Source: a virus
Direction: 5' to 3' (one strand)
Length of the DNA: 61,389 nt
Virus record (IMG/VR): IMGVR_UViG_3300025132_007241
Span: 1 to 61,389 of that record
This document shows positions 7,624 to 19,508 of the stretch, piece by piece; within the stretch, counting starts at the first letter, position 1, and every line of letters starts with the position of its first letter. Position numbers and translations under genes: made by a program. The notes below the pieces were generated by a model. It searched no databases. It was not told the origin of the DNA and saw only the letters and a program-made list of their open reading frames with translations.

Positions 7624-8459
7624 TGTCGGTGCTATTCCTCGCTGATTTCTTCAGCGACCAGATCAACGGTGGGGGCGAGAACAATGATGCTGTCCTCATC
7701 GCTGATCTGCGTCAGAGGGGAATTTCAGTTGAAAAGGTTCACTGCCAAGCGGTCACGGTTGATCAACTACATGCAGCTGATACGGTTATAGTTTCAAACT
7801 TTGTTACTCTTGCATCGACGCATAGGGAATATATTACCGACAATTGTGATTACATCATTTATGAGCATGACCACAAATATGTAACAACGCGTGATCCCTC
7901 GAAGTTCGTAAACTTTATGATTCCTCCACAACATATTATCAACAAGATGTTCTATCACCGTGCACGAAAAGTGATTGTACTCAGTGAAATTTGCAAAACT
8001 GTCATGGAAAATAATTTGGGTAATACCAACGTCCACTCGATTGGTAGCAGCTTGTGGTCGAAAGAGAAATTCACATTTTTGCGTGAGTGCCCAAAGAACA
8101 AGACAAAAGGCGTAGCTGTGATCGATTCTAGCAACCCGACCAAGGGTAGGGCTGCAGCGATAGCCACTTGCGAGAAAAAGAACATAGAATTTGATCTTGT
8201 CTCATCACCTGATCAATATGAATTTCTCAAGATATTAAGCGAGTATAAATCATTGTTATTTGTCCCTCAAGTGTTAGAGACCTTTTGCCGATTAATAGCA
8301 GAAGCAAAGATGTTGGAATGCCAGGTTTACACTAACGGAAAATTAATTGGCATGATGAGCGAGCCATTTGCACAACAATCCGGACTTGAATTAATCGAAA
8401 CCCTGGAAGGTCAGGTCACTAGCGCCTTGGATTATTTTTATGAGTTGGTAAAAAAATGA
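7587..8459 (+). CDS. Glycosyltransferase-like protein (GT-B fold, divergent)
   Basis: A 290-residue protein. The N-terminal part has FSDQINGGGENND, a glycine-rich loop near residue 25. The C-terminal part has an EX7E-like motif (ETFCRLIAE) followed by AKMLECQVYTNG, as in GT4 enzymes. It is shorter than its two upstream neighbours, with a reduced N-terminal domain. The ATG at 7587 has a strong GAGGAG 5 bases upstream, so I keep it despite a 37-bp overlap. A GTG at 7623 is the alternative. It ends in an ATGA overlap with the heptose epimerase gene. Confidence 0.7.
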   Translation: MVISNGRHSDSVVSVLFLADFFSDQINGGGENNDAVLIADLRQRGISVEKVHCQAVTVDQLHAADTVIVSNFVTLASTHREYITDNCDYIIYEHDHKYVTTRDPSKFVNFMIPPQHIINKMFYHRARKVIVLSEICKTVMENNLGNTNVHSIGSSLWSKEKFTFLRECPKNKTKGVAVIDSSNPTKGRAAAIATCEKKNIEFDLVSSPDQYEFLKILSEYKSLLFVPQVLETFCRLIAEAKMLECQVYTNGKLIGMMSEPFAQQSGLELIETLEGQVTSALDYFYELVKK

Positions 8460-9316
8460 TTTTAGTGACAGGCGCCGCAGGATTTATAGGACAAAGCTTA
8501 GTCGACCATCTAGGCACCCGCGCCGTGATTTGCGCCGATCCCTCTGATTCAAATATGTTAACACCGGAAGAGGCTTTACGCCGTCTGGAGTTTACTGACG
8601 ATATCACCGTGGTATATCATATGGGCGCCATATCTTCTACTACAGAAACAAATATGTTGGCGCTCACTGAAAATAATGTTGCTTATAGTCTCAAACTTCT
8701 GTATCTTTGCCTCGATAAAGACATTCCCTTTGTTTATGCCTCTTCCGCATCGGTGTATGGCGCTGCCACTGGAACTCAGCGAGAGGACCAACCACACGCC
8801 CCCATTAACGGATACGCTATAAGCAAGTCGACCTTTGACAACTTTACGCATCAGATAATCTCACTATATCCAGACGCCAAAGTGTATGGGCTTAGGTATT
8901 TTAACGTTTATGGTCATCACGAACATCATAAGGGCAATATGGCGAGCCCTGTGCACAAATTCACGATGCAGGCAAGAGATACAGGTAAGATCCAGATTTT
9001 TGAGGGTAGCGAAAACTATCTTCGTGATTTCATTAATATTGAAGACGTAGTAAAAATTACCATTGAAGCAAGCAACCTCGCGCAAGCTGGTGTTTATAAC
9101 GTAGGAACAGGAGTCGCTCGATCGTTCCTAGATGTGGCTAAGATAATCGCTGCTGAGACGGGGGCGGAAATTGAGGAAATCCCCTTCCCAAACCATCTCA
9201 AAGGTAGATATCAGACCCACACCTGCAGCGATAACACAAAAATTGCGGACAATGGCTACACTCACCCGCGCCTCGATCTAGAGACTGGAATTAAAAACAC
9301 CCTGGCTTTGATATGA
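8456..9316 (+). CDS. hldD: ADP-L-glycero-D-manno-heptose 6-epimerase
   Basis: A 286-residue extended SDR enzyme. GAAGFIGQS (6-14) binds NADP. HMGAISSTTET (55-65) matches the HldD substrate segment. YAISK has catalytic Tyr120 and Lys124, and RYFNVYG plus HHKGNMASPVHKF and FEGSENYLRDF are HldD hallmarks, as is FPNHLKGRYQ near residue 245. HldD converts ADP-D-glycero- to ADP-L-glycero-D-manno-heptose, the last step of the LPS inner-core heptose donor pathway. It is somewhat shorter than the usual 310 residues because the loop after the first strands is trimmed. It is coupled by 4-bp overlaps to both neighbours and is followed by the heptose adenylyltransferase and kinase genes, which strongly supports the assignment. 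Confidence 0.9.
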   Translation: MILVTGAAGFIGQSLVDHLGTRAVICADPSDSNMLTPEEALRRLEFTDDITVVYHMGAISSTTETNMLALTENNVAYSLKLLYLCLDKDIPFVYASSASVYGAATGTQREDQPHAPINGYAISKSTFDNFTHQIISLYPDAKVYGLRYFNVYGHHEHHKGNMASPVHKFTMQARDTGKIQIFEGSENYLRDFINIEDVVKITIEASNLAQAGVYNVGTGVARSFLDVAKIIAAETGAEIEEIPFPNHLKGRYQTHTCSDNTKIADNGYTHPRLDLETGIKNTLALI

Positions 9317-9711
9317 CAACAGTTTTTATTAATGGCTGTTTTGATATCTTGCATCGAGGTCACCTAGAATTGTTTAAATATGGTGCCTCCCTGGGTACTA
9401 CTCTCGTCGTTGCAATCGATTCAGACGAAAAGGTCAGAGCAGCCAAAGGACCAGATCGTCCTGTTAACAGTGTAGAAGATCGAAAGTTTATGTTATCCTC
9501 ATTACGATACATCGATCAGGTCGAAGTGTTTAACACACCAGAAGAGCTTGTCGCACTAGTAAAACAAACCGCCCCTGATATTATGATTGTAGGATCAGAT
9601 TGGCAAGGTAAGCATATTGTTGGCGGAGAGCACGCCAAAAAGATTAAGTATTTTGAGAGAATAGATGGATATTCCACAACCAAAATCATTCAAAGTATTA
9701 GTGATAGGTGA
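9313..9711 (+). CDS. rfaE2: Heptose 1-phosphate adenylyltransferase (HldE C-terminal domain as a free protein)
   Basis: A 132-residue nucleotidyltransferase. NGCFDILHRGHLELF (8-21) holds the HRGH motif (14-17), KGPDRPVN (45-52) is the RfaE substrate loop, and GYSTTKII (119-126) is the C-terminal nucleotide motif. These are the signatures of the adenylyltransferase half of HldE, which makes ADP-D-glycero-D-manno-heptose from the 1-phosphate and ATP. In E. coli this domain is the C-terminal part of a bifunctional enzyme. Here it is separate and precedes the kinase gene. It overlaps hldD by 4 bp and the kinase gene by 47 bp. Confidence 0.9.
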   Translation: MTTVFINGCFDILHRGHLELFKYGASLGTTLVVAIDSDEKVRAAKGPDRPVNSVEDRKFMLSSLRYIDQVEVFNTPEELVALVKQTAPDIMIVGSDWQGKHIVGGEHAKKIKYFERIDGYSTTKIIQSISDR

Positions 9712-10435
9712 TGCCTGCACAGATCGGTATTATTATGGGGACTGCACACGGCTAAGTCCAGAGGCGCCTGTGCCCGTTTTGAAGCACTTATACACTGAAG
9801 AGCGCCTAGGCATGTGTTTGAACGTTGGAGCCAATCTAAAGGCTCTGGGCGCCTCTGTAGACGTTTTAAAGAATGACGAAATGATCTATAAGGATCGCTT
9901 TGTCGACGTCAAAACAAAACAGCATCTTTTAAGAGCGGATTTCGGTGAAAGCAAAGCAGTGATACCGATGGATACGTCCTGTCTTAATGTAAATTCATAT
10001 GACGCTGTCGTGGTATCAGATTATGATAAAGGATTCGTTAGTCGAACAGCAGCCGTTGAAATATCAACAAAATGTAACGAAGCTAAAATTCCGCTGTTTG
10101 TGGATTCCAAGAAAAAGAAATTAACTTGCTATGAACACTGTTTCATCAAAATAAACGAAAAAGAAAGAAACGAACTGCATTCATATTCTAAAACGGCAGA
10201 CCTAATTGTGACCTTGGGCGCAAAGGGGGTAGAGTGGGCAGGCACGGTGTACCCCACAACAGAATGCGAAGTGTTTGATGTGTCGGGTGCAGGCGATACT
10301 TTCCTTGCTGCGCTGGTGCATAAATATCTTGAAACCAAAGATACACCCACAGCGCTTAAATTTGCTAATGATTGTGCTAGAATAGTAGTACAAAAGTTTG
10401 GCACCTATTGCCTAAAGCCAGGAGATCTTACATAG
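9665..10435 (+). CDS. rfaE1: Heptose 7-phosphate kinase (HldE N-terminal domain as a free PfkB-family protein)
   Basis: A 256-residue PfkB/ribokinase-family kinase. VLVIGDACTDRYYYGDCTRLSPE (11-33) and APVPVLK (34-40) are close to the HldE start. FVDSKKKK sits near residue 148, and DVSGAGDTF (205-213) holds the catalytic Asp211 and the anion hole. HldE kinase phosphorylates D-glycero-D-manno-heptose 7-phosphate at O1 to the 1,7-bisphosphate. The protein is 60-70 residues shorter than the domain in E. coli, with shortened middle segments. The start is supported by GAGAG before the ATG and by the conserved N-terminus, although it overlaps the adenylyltransferase gene by 47 bp. The next gene starts immediately after its stop. 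Confidence 0.88.
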   Translation: MDIPQPKSFKVLVIGDACTDRYYYGDCTRLSPEAPVPVLKHLYTEERLGMCLNVGANLKALGASVDVLKNDEMIYKDRFVDVKTKQHLLRADFGESKAVIPMDTSCLNVNSYDAVVVSDYDKGFVSRTAAVEISTKCNEAKIPLFVDSKKKKLTCYEHCFIKINEKERNELHSYSKTADLIVTLGAKGVEWAGTVYPTTECEVFDVSGAGDTFLAALVHKYLETKDTPTALKFANDCARIVVQKFGTYCLKPGDLT

Positions 10436-10765
10436 ATGAACTATGTATTTGATATAGATGGTACAATTTGTACCACCACAGAGGGGAACTATGAGACAGC
10501 TAAACCTCTCGCTGATCGTATTGCGATCGTTAATGCTCTTTATGATGAGGGGCACACAATTATTTTCCAAACGGCTCGTGGAATGGGGCGTAGCGATAAC
10601 TCTGTTGCCTATGCAAACACTGCATTTTATGAGTTAACAAAACGGCAGTTGAACAACTGGGGAGTTAAGTATCACTCTCTATTTTTAGGAAAACCAGCAG
10701 GAGATATATACATCGATGACAAAGGAATTAAAGACAAAGACTTCTTTGCCCATGAAACACGTTGA
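10436..10765 (+). CDS. Small HAD-type phosphatase, candidate heptose bisphosphate phosphatase
   Basis: A 109-residue minimal HAD hydrolase with FDIDGTI (5-11; nucleophile Asp6, acid/base Asp8), FQTARG (42-47; Thr of motif II), LGKPAGDIYIDDK with Lys near residue 84 and the acidic pair near residue 92. It resembles small HAD proteins of capsule and LPS loci. It directly follows the heptose kinase gene with no gap, so removal of the 7-phosphate from heptose 1,7-bisphosphate (the GmhB step) is a reasonable inference. True GmhB proteins are longer (about 180-190 residues) and this one lacks their insert, so the role rests on context. Confidence 0.75.
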   Translation: MNYVFDIDGTICTTTEGNYETAKPLADRIAIVNALYDEGHTIIFQTARGMGRSDNSVAYANTAFYELTKRQLNNWGVKYHSLFLGKPAGDIYIDDKGIKDKDFFAHETR

Positions 10766-16509: not shown

Positions 16510-17150
16510 TGTCAAAGCACAAATATAACTTCTCTCTCACTAACACTACTGCTAAAACCGATGAGCCACACCCCGAGAATCTGAAAAAAACATGGCAACA
16601 TAATAGACCAGTCGAAGGCGCTACTGCAGCTGCTGTATTCGGTGAAGGCAACGGTGACACGGAGTATGTCAACATCTTTAATGCTCATTATCCTAACTTT
16701 GAAGGCAAGGTTCTTGAAATTGGCGCCGGCACCGGTTGGTTTGCTAAACAGATTCTTACGAGTTGCCCTAATGTAGAATATACCATTTTAGACATTGAAA
16801 GGAATATTGAAGACACAATTAAGAACACGCTCTCGGATTTCCCTGATGTTTGTTATATAACCTCTGCTAACTATAAAGATGCTTTGACGGAAACATACGA
16901 CCTGTTTATAGAGACCCATTGTTTGTCGGAGACTCCTCAATATTACTATACAGACATTCTCGGTAAACTCCAGACCAAAAATTGTTTAGTGATTGATTAT
17001 GGCGGCGATCCAAATGATCCGGGTTTTAACGACACTCTCGACACATGGTTCTCTCAATTTGCACACCAGGACAAATCGATTAACCGAGCCCTCCTAGGCG
17101 GCAACAATTATCCCATCCCAGTCTATATTGGTAAATCAGACAAGGCATAA
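16509..17150 (+). CDS. SAM-dependent methyltransferase, class I
   Basis: A 213-residue protein. VLEIGAGTGWFAKQIL near residues 69-84 is the SAM-binding motif I, YTILDIERN (about 95-103) is motif II and YDLFIETHCLSE (about 133-144) is the motif IV region. It resembles sugar O-methyltransferases found in LPS and capsule loci. The N-terminal 50 residues include HPENLKKTWQ, a helical extension. TAATG couplings link it to both neighbours. The substrate is probably a sugar hydroxyl on the glycan. Confidence 0.8.
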   Translation: MSKHKYNFSLTNTTAKTDEPHPENLKKTWQHNRPVEGATAAAVFGEGNGDTEYVNIFNAHYPNFEGKVLEIGAGTGWFAKQILTSCPNVEYTILDIERNIEDTIKNTLSDFPDVCYITSANYKDALTETYDLFIETHCLSETPQYYYTDILGKLQTKNCLVIDYGGDPNDPGFNDTLDTWFSQFAHQDKSINRALLGGNNYPIPVYIGKSDKA

Positions 17151-17872
17151 TGAATCCAAATATCTCCAATCCTTTTGCGCCCTATAAAGACTCTCATGCA
17201 GGGGCAACTGCAATCTTGTGCGGCTCTGGACCCACACTTTTAGAGTTTGATGCATCGCTGGTTCCTGAAGGAGTGTTGCGATTCGGTGTAAATGATCAGA
17301 TTTTCCTTGACCTAGATCTAGATTATTGGTTTATGGGAGATTCCGTTCCGCAAGTCCCGGACAAGTTTTGGAATCGGTACAACGACTTTAACGACTACCT
17401 ACCCAAGAGACAGAAGTTTGTGCGTTTCTGTAATTGGGTCGACGATAGGGAGATTATAATTCAACCCTACGGTCGTGTGCCGCGGAATGGACAGTTACCT
17501 CTTAACCTTAAAAACGCCAAGTACTATGTATCGGACAGTGGAGGAAACCCTGATCACTGCAAGTTCAAAAAGAATATAGCAGAGGGAAATTTGACTTCTG
17601 TTGCATCAATTACTTTTGAAGTGCTCCAATTCATGTTATACTGTGGCATAAAGAAGATCTTTTTAGTGGGACAAGATTGTGATTATTCTGGTGGAACCTT
17701 TGCCAAGATTATGATAGGCAAACAACAGAGGGCGGATTACTATATCCTCAGATACTGGAAGCATGTAAAAGAGTGGATTACAGAAAATCACCCTGATGTT
17801 GAGATTTATAGCATCAACCCCGTGGCTTTAGATATCTTCCCCGAAGCCAAGATAGAGGACATTAAATGTTAG
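17150..17872 (+). CDS. DUF115/sialyltransferase-like glycan enzyme
   Basis: A 240-residue protein. AILCGSGPTLLEFDA near residues 21-35 is the GSGP nucleotide loop typical of DUF115-like and bacterial GT42-like proteins. VNDQIFLDLDLDYWFMGD (about 47-64) and KKIFLVGQDCDYSGG (about 168-182) match the rest of that fold. SVASITFEVLQFMLYCGI is a conserved helix before the QDC segment. These proteins transfer nonulosonic acids (sialic or legionaminic type) to glycans or flagellin. A CMP-sugar synthetase gene lies two genes downstream and would supply such a donor. The exact acceptor is unknown. Confidence 0.7.
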   Translation: MNPNISNPFAPYKDSHAGATAILCGSGPTLLEFDASLVPEGVLRFGVNDQIFLDLDLDYWFMGDSVPQVPDKFWNRYNDFNDYLPKRQKFVRFCNWVDDREIIIQPYGRVPRNGQLPLNLKNAKYYVSDSGGNPDHCKFKKNIAEGNLTSVASITFEVLQFMLYCGIKKIFLVGQDCDYSGGTFAKIMIGKQQRADYYILRYWKHVKEWITENHPDVEIYSINPVALDIFPEAKIEDIKC

Positions 17873-18846
17873 ACATTGAAGATTTTGAAAGAAAATATAA
17901 CGCTATCGTGAATAGCGAGCAGTTTGCCCAACTGCAAGAAACATATAACAAAGCCAAGTACGTGTTTTTCTTTGGACATGGTGGTAATATGGGCGTGGCA
18001 GAACACGCCGCTATTGATCACTCTCGCCTCACAGACAAGAATGTATTCGCCCCAGGAGGCGGAGTCATTGTGACATCAATCCAGGGTGACACCAGCTTTA
18101 ATGACTGGATCATGAACTGGCTAGATATTCGTACTCGCGGATTAGAAAAGAGCGAGTGCTTGGCTATTGGAATTTCGTGCTCCACCAACGGTATCTCCTC
18201 GGATTGCCTCTCTACTGCGCTGAACTGGGCTGCAGAAAACGGCATGCAAGCGTGTCTCTGGGCTGCGCAGCCGAAAGAAAAGGGCATCCACCCGCAAGTC
18301 AATCAGATTATCCAGCACACCAAATACTACCATACTTCGGAGATTATTTCTCTAACGATGACATATGAGTTGATTCATGGTGCCGGATTTATGTGCCCTG
18401 CAATCTCGACCAAAGCCCAGCAGCGTCGGTTTGAAAAGCTAGGGATTGAATCTGAGGTCGAAACCCACAATCAGCACGTTCCACCCGGCATGGAGACCCA
18501 ACTCAACAATTTGGCCATTGACTTCGATGGAGTTATTCATAACTTTGATAAGGGCTGGCACGATGGCACCTGCTATGGTGATCCCCTGCCCGGAGCACTG
18601 GATGCCATCCGCACACTGGCTGAGGACTGGAACATTATCGTCTTCTCTGCAAAGGTTCGCCCTGATCGACCACTAGTTGGCGGGAAAACAGGATACGAGC
18701 TGGTGGATGAATGGCTACAGGACCACGGAGTTCGTGACTTAGTCGCTGAAATTACTCATGAAAAGCCACGCGCTCAACATTATATTGACGATAAGGCTAT
18801 TGAGTTTACCAATAACTGGACTGAGATTCTGGAGCGCCTACAGTGA
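17866..18846 (+). CDS. gmhA: Sedoheptulose-7-phosphate isomerase (GmhA-like SIS domain) fused to a HAD phosphatase domain
   Basis: A 326-residue two-domain protein. Residues about 28-185 are a SIS domain of GmhA type: FFGHGGNMGVAEHAA (35-49), PGGGVIVTSIQGDTSFND (63-80), and AIGISCSTNG (100-109), where GmhA has GISTSGNS. A His (171) sits in the C-terminal helix. Residues about 215-326 are a HAD domain with LAIDFDGVIH (216-225; Asp219 and Asp221), FSAKVRPDR, and HYIDDKAIEF (305-314). GmhA isomerises sedoheptulose 7-phosphate to D-glycero-D-manno-heptose 7-phosphate. The fused HAD could remove a phosphate later in the route (GmhB-like). I know of no standard GmhA with this fusion. The overlap with the upstream gene is 7 bp. 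The next gene uses a GTG start inside its stop. Confidence 0.85.
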   Translation: MLDIEDFERKYNAIVNSEQFAQLQETYNKAKYVFFFGHGGNMGVAEHAAIDHSRLTDKNVFAPGGGVIVTSIQGDTSFNDWIMNWLDIRTRGLEKSECLAIGISCSTNGISSDCLSTALNWAAENGMQACLWAAQPKEKGIHPQVNQIIQHTKYYHTSEIISLTMTYELIHGAGFMCPAISTKAQQRRFEKLGIESEVETHNQHVPPGMETQLNNLAIDFDGVIHNFDKGWHDGTCYGDPLPGALDAIRTLAEDWNIIVFSAKVRPDRPLVGGKTGYELVDEWLQDHGVRDLVAEITHEKPRAQHYIDDKAIEFTNNWTEILERLQ

Positions 18847-19508
18847 AAAGCATTACAGCTGTTGTACCTGTACGCAAGGGATCGGTAAGAGTAAAGAATA
18901 AGAATCTTAAACCTTTTGCTGGCAAAACACTTCTACAGATTAAGGTTGAGCAGTTAAAGCAAGTAAGCCTTATTGATAACATTGTCGTAAGTTCTGATTG
19001 TGATGACATGCTAGCCCTAGCAGCGGAGCTAGGAGTTAATACCCACCGTCGCGTTGATTACTTTGCTTCATCAGAGGCAACAAACTCAGAGTTCTTTGAA
19101 AATCTGGGGCAAGCCATTGAGGGTGACTATCTCATGTATAGTCCCGTGACTTGCCCTTTGATCTCATTGGAAACATATCATGATTGCATCTCAACCTTCC
19201 AACAGGATGAGGAGATGGAAAATCTAGTAACAGTTACCGCTGTGAAGCATCACCTGTGGTTGGACAACGAACCGTTAAACTATGATGTCACTAATTCCCC
19301 CAACAGTCAGGACCTTCCTGATATCTATGCCATCACTTATGGTGTTTGTATTATTTCCCGCGACGATATGATCGCTCGCCGCAATATCGTGACCCCAAAC
19401 CCTACCTTTAAAGTACTCGATGAAATTGAGTCTGTTGACATCGACACCGAGTTTGATTTTATGGTGGCGGAGATGATCTACAAGAAAATAAATAACTTGA
19501 CATTCTGA
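18843..19508 (+). CDS. CMP-sugar synthetase (acylneuraminate cytidylyltransferase-like)
   Basis: A 221-residue GT-A-type nucleotidyltransferase with a GTG start overlapping the previous stop. VVPVRKGSVRVKNKNLKPFAGK (7-28) is the NeuA/KdsB nucleotide-binding P-loop, ending with TLLQIKVEQL. YLMYSPVTCPL near residue 97 matches the acidic/pocket region. It would activate a nonulosonic acid or Kdo-like acid sugar as a CMP-sugar. No NeuB-type synthase is present in the window, so the acid sugar would have to come from the host or from elsewhere in the phage genome. The length is close to that of single-domain NeuA. Confidence 0.82.
   Translation: MKSITAVVPVRKGSVRVKNKNLKPFAGKTLLQIKVEQLKQVSLIDNIVVSSDCDDMLALAAELGVNTHRRVDYFASSEATNSEFFENLGQAIEGDYLMYSPVTCPLISLETYHDCISTFQQDEEMENLVTVTAVKHHLWLDNEPLNYDVTNSPNSQDLPDIYAITYGVCIISRDDMIARRNIVTPNPTFKVLDEIESVDIDTEFDFMVAEMIYKKINNLTF

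Follow-up and report, generated by a model that had tools for sequence, protein, structure and literature searches.

The biosynthesis of Kdo follows a known order of isomerase, three-carbon addition, phosphatase, CMP activation and transfer. The same three kinds of reaction as those of KdsD, KdsC and KdsB, the last with a PF02348 synthetase, are predicted for one cluster in the phage locus described here. Unlike in the Kdo pathway the isomerase and phosphatase are fused, the sugar isomerase (SIS) domain is nearer to GmhA than to KdsD and lacks CBS domains, and the position of KdsA is taken by an HpcH/HpaI aldolase in many related loci. The bacterial sialic acid modules (NeuB-NeuA-GT29/GT42, with Cst-I and Cst-II among the transferases) share a CMP-sugar synthetase and a putative GT29/GT42-type transferase with the phage loci but are not known for a fused SIS·HAD protein; in addition, NeuB is often replaced by an HpcH/HpaI aldolase in the loci considered here, which reside in phage genomes. 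Known heptose donors, by comparison, are ADP- or GDP-activated.

The genes kdsB, kdsA, neuA and gmh have been reported in marine viromes and are already classed among the auxiliary metabolic genes there (PMC10653327, PMC9529941). While these earlier reports count viral genes singly, one fused protein here serves as the marker of an entire linked pathway, present in dozens of viral contigs, which spans from sugar phosphate to sialyltransferase-type transferase and yields a testable prediction on how phages change surface sugars. In the literature searched, mostly without subscription journals, no description was found of the SIS·HAD fusion and its linkage, or of the use of HpcH/HpaI aldolases to make CMP-ulosonates.

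The fusion is encoded in the window, the whole 61,389-nucleotide stretch of an IMG/VR virus record (IMGVR_UViG_3300025132_007241), whose genes include one for a phage late sigma factor (PHROG 234) and a large cluster for sugar metabolism. It probably helps to make a sialic acid- or Kdo-type acidic sugar for surface coats rather than heptose, and is likely to be a bifunctional sugar-phosphate isomerase/ulosonate-phosphate phosphatase of a phage CMP-ulosonate (Kdo- or sialic-acid-like) module.

A two-domain protein of marine viruses

The fusion gene occupies positions 17866-18846 on the plus strand, starts with ATG and encodes 326 aa, while the opposite strand is interrupted by stops. The original prediction of a SIS domain followed by a HAD domain in this ORF proved correct in content, order and motif positions according to the ORF check, the alignment and the structural model. 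The GmhA-like SIS domain comprises residues 1 to about 178 (17866..18399, plus strand; model, alignment and VIA-align) and is joined by a linker of about residues 179-209 (18400..18492, plus strand), which has low confidence in the model and varies in length among relatives, to the HAD phosphatase domain of about residues 210-326 plus the stop codon (18493..18846, plus strand; model, alignment and PHROG). AlphaFold2, run with an alignment of 45 fused relatives of 34-97% identity, modelled two domains confidently and the linker between them with low confidence, at a mean pLDDT of 84.7. The protein is thus predicted to fold as two domains and not one, with an inter-domain arrangement that the model does not fix given its pTM of 0.55. 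Profile, structure and PHROG scans detected both domains, either of which was barely seen when the window protein was scanned as a single sequence against Pfam and NCBIfam; these searches and phmmer against the PDB returned weak or chance matches only.

The same domain order is found in other genomes, as two IMG/VR scans identified about 60 full-length SIS·HAD fusions on marine viral contigs. With this many relatives, assembly and reading-frame artefacts can be dismissed as the source of the fusion, and a chance origin is likewise ruled out. The SIS family cluster contains 67 sequences that form 46 groups at 90% identity. In five or six loci (L019, L057, L062, L063, L066 and perhaps L005) SIS and HAD are encoded by separate adjacent genes. 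The two halves in L005 (7625-8622) lie in two overlapping frames by an A-rich stretch, which may reflect a natural split, a frameshift or a sequencing error. Among 50,697 phage records no isolate phage carries a full-length fusion (best cover 48%). A scan of cellular genomes, one for each of 84,980 prokaryote species and seeded on the HAD motifs so that very divergent fusions could escape it, revealed a single full-length fusion. It is located on a contig of 8 kb binned with Verrucomicrobia (L091) that may itself be viral, since its neighbouring genes resemble those of the viral loci.

The SIS half and the question of heptose

The SIS half has a GmhA-type SIS fold, and GmhA and DiaA are both its nearest folds and its nearest HMMs. 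VIA-align comparisons gave Z scores of about 19-20 for this group (GmhA 20.1, DiaA 19.3), with an rmsd of 2.4-2.9 over about 165 residues for several GmhA structures, as opposed to 15.6 for the KdsD SIS domain and about 14 for GlmS. Like members of the GmhA/DiaA group the SIS half retains both phosphosugar loops (G37-N41 and S104-S112) and the equivalent of GmhA His61, which aligns with H47 of the fusion. None of the 45 fused relatives deviates at H47, D51, D75, S104, S106, S112, Y155 or E159. Unlike in GmhA, where 12 of the 13 sequences compared have a glutamate at position 65 (E. coli numbering), the corresponding D51 is an aspartate in 45/45 fused relatives. Gln172 and His180 of GmhA have no clear counterpart as hhalign gave no reliable columns for the last SIS helix; E159 and Y167 of the fusion match their spacing in this unreliable helix alignment but differ as residues. 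His61, Glu65, Gln172 and His180 are catalytic or metal-binding in GmhA, and judging from the alignment a GmhA-like site in the SIS half would at best be strongly modified. The gmhA equivalog model TIGR00441 (cut-off 209.45 bits) matches neither the window protein nor anything else in the window record, and reaches a best E of 3e-10 among the 45 fused relatives.

The altered metal and catalytic positions, together with a fold about as similar to DiaA as to GmhA, are also what would be expected of a SIS half without enzymatic activity. Such a sugar-phosphate-binding or assembly domain, comparable to those of DiaA, MurR/RpiR and GKRP, would regulate the HAD domain or tether it ahead of the synthetase, and the occurrence of the HAD without a SIS domain in other cassettes is consistent with this. 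DiaA illustrates that such a fold can be devoid of enzyme function, and the greater structural distance to KdsD in the models also speaks against the CMP-ulosonate reading. However, the invariance of H47, D51, D75, Y155 and E159 across 45 divergent sequences suggests an active site, both phosphosugar loops are retained, and SIS and HAD exist as separate adjacent genes as well. A non-enzymatic SIS half is therefore considered unlikely, and an isomerase acting in a CMP-ulosonate module remains the preferred reading.

The fusion had been proposed to combine the first and the phosphatase step of heptose-donor synthesis. As a GmhA-GmhB fusion supplying precursors of ADP-heptose, its SIS half would convert sedoheptulose 7-phosphate to heptose 7-phosphate and its HAD half would remove the 7-phosphate from heptose 1,7-bisphosphate. 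The GmhA-like SIS fold is in line with this, as is the presence in the same window of HldD and of an HldE-like kinase and adenylyltransferase with no separate GmhA. HldD is encoded at 8456-9316 and with 271.6 bits falls just short of the 274.6-bit cut-off. It is followed by the genes for the HldE adenylyltransferase and kinase and then by a free small HAD at 10436-10765, which is present as originally described. Within 8456-10765 HldE is divided between two overlapping genes whose order is reversed, with the adenylyltransferase first and the kinase second.

By its gene content this region appears to be an ADP-heptose-like set that includes a phosphatase of its own but lacks GmhA, and the HAD at 10436-10765 is predicted to be a better GmhB candidate than the HAD half of the fusion. 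The suggestion of a different substrate for one of the two HADs is judged right, the free HAD being the one within the HldD/HldE cluster. No GmhA above the cut-off was detected in any of the 16 records searched, nearly all of them HldE-bearing, making the host GmhA the simpler source of this activity. The fusion itself does not fall in the heptose-donor gene set. The HldE kinase is present in only 8 of 36 SIS-HAD records, compared to 8 of 16 HAD-only loci, whereas the gene linked to the fusion in 31/31 records is a CMP-sugar synthetase, at odds with the nucleotides that activate known heptose donors. Together with the missing gmhA match and the Glu65 to Asp exchange this leaves a role in heptose-donor synthesis unsupported. 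An ADP-heptose role was rejected as the main reading on the gmhA model, the active-site changes and the synthetase linkage, and a GmhA-GmhB fusion is regarded as highly improbable. The SIS half also scores far below the gmhA cut-off, and the gene neighbourhood differs from that of the GmhA/DiaA group.

The HAD half and its relatives

The HAD half contains D219 and D221, which by motif are the nucleophile and the acid/base, respectively. These residues as well as K300, D308 and D309 are invariant in 45/45 fused relatives, all of which have a serine or threonine at the motif II position 261. Conserved motifs of this kind mark HAD phosphatases generally and not GmhB specifically. The HAD half matches phrog_1238 (E 1.4e-13) and, weakly, the NCBIfam model of the BT0820 family. 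It is akin to the small HAD phosphatases of the phrog_1238, EcbF/BcbF and BT0820 families, albeit below curated cut-offs; unlike in these families the HAD is here fused to a SIS domain and linked to a CMP-sugar synthetase.

PHROG 1238 is labelled phosphoheptose isomerase and yet it matches the HAD domain of the fusion and not the SIS domain, which calls for caution with the heptose label. Three of the matches in phage records (H9, H13 and H15) are likewise HAD phosphatases carrying the name 'phosphoheptose isomerase', apparently a spreading misannotation.

Gene linkage and a predicted CMP-ulosonate module

The end of the fusion gene overlaps by 4 bases with a gene for a CMP-sugar synthetase (18843..19508, plus strand), a PseF/KdsB-like PF02348 protein whose score falls well short of the equivalog cut-offs for PseF and KdsB. 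Its start overlaps by 7 bases with the gene for an MptE-like/GT42-like protein, a probable CMP-sugar transferase (17150..17872, plus strand). Overlaps on both flanks would be as in a translationally coupled operon. PF02348 synthetases are encoded in 31/31 whole SIS-HAD records and in 0/10 HAD-only control records (Fisher p about 9e-10, an optimistic value since the records are partly related). Of 69 loci, 33 have the synthetase gene no more than 60 bases away from the SIS gene and 47 have it within 1.5 kb; overlap with the fusion gene itself is frequent. Gene neighbourhood of this kind indicates a pathway and not a reaction.

The HAD of the HAD-only controls shares about 60% identity with that of the fusion and sits in another conserved cassette, PfpI-cupin-HAD-E1alpha-E1beta. 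This thiamine-dependent cassette occurs in L067-L083 (around 6.7-10.1 kb) and L092-L095, and is common to viral contigs and gammaproteobacterial single-cell genomes, with the E1 genes missing in some.

The protein encoded at 17150-17872 matches the MptE-like family weakly, and no PDB chain matched its sequence profile. Its predicted fold (pLDDT 75.7, pTM 0.82, from eight sequences) yielded 11 Foldseek matches in the PDB at E <= 0.001, all of which are bacterial GT42-type sialyltransferases, mostly CstII. VIA-align placed an MptE-type HPPK first with a Z score of 11.1, followed by Cst-I and Cst-II with 9-10. The gene occupies the slot that is held by GT29 in L001, L002 and L008-L011. No locus combines members of the GT29 and MptE-like clusters. 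Sialyltransferase-family GT29 genes are present in 16/31 SIS-HAD records compared to 0/10 HAD-only records. Based on the modelled fold, the likeliest product of 17150-17872 is a CMP-sugar transferase, with the HPPK match leaving room for another activity.

In about 17 loci the fusion directly adjoins or overlaps a gene for an HpcH/HpaI pyruvate aldolase. Aldolase genes are found in 9/31 SIS-HAD records versus 1/10 HAD-only records, a difference that is not significant (p 0.40). The gene run GT29-synthetase-aldolase-SIS·HAD is present in L027, L048, L051 and L052-L054, while in L025 a kdsB gene above the TIGR00466 cut-off is followed by the aldolase and then by the fusion. In L099 (5329-6462) an HpcH/HpaI aldolase is fused to the same HAD family, with an epimerase and a CMP-sugar synthetase nearby, so that gene fusions and gene positions alike tie SIS, aldolase and HAD together. 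NeuB is encoded in 5/36 SIS-HAD records and DAHP_synth_1, a DAHP/KdsA-type synthase, in 2/36. That NeuB, KdsA-type or HpcH genes occur in only part of the relatives counts against the CMP-ulosonate reading. Searches of the window, possibly a genome fragment, revealed neither a ulosonate synthase nor an aldolase, hence the carbon-adding step would need a host enzyme or a missing part of the genome.

In the proposed pathway the SIS half would act like KdsD in converting ketose and aldose phosphates into one another. Three carbons would then be added by the HpcH/HpaI pyruvate aldolase, a PEP-dependent synthase of the NeuB/KdsA type or a host enzyme to produce a 2-keto-3-deoxy sugar-acid phosphate, from which the HAD half would remove the phosphate as KdsC does. 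The product of the overlapping next gene would attach CMP (the KdsB/NeuA/PseF role) and that of the upstream gene, GT42-like here and GT29 in relatives, would transfer the sugar onto a surface or virion glycan, the presumed purpose of the module being the remodelling of surface glycans. A more tentative proposal, to which we give rather less than an even chance, is that a widespread marine-phage cassette makes CMP-ulosonic acids by an undescribed route consisting of SIS·HAD, an HpcH/HpaI aldolase in place of the PEP-dependent synthase, a CMP-sugar synthetase and GT29/GT42. If so, phages could give a new coat of sialic-acid-like sugar to their host or to themselves.

A further fusion is found close to the SIS-HAD cassette in 10 loci, where a HAD_2 phosphatase is joined to an NTP_transferase domain, as in L021 (4831-6201).
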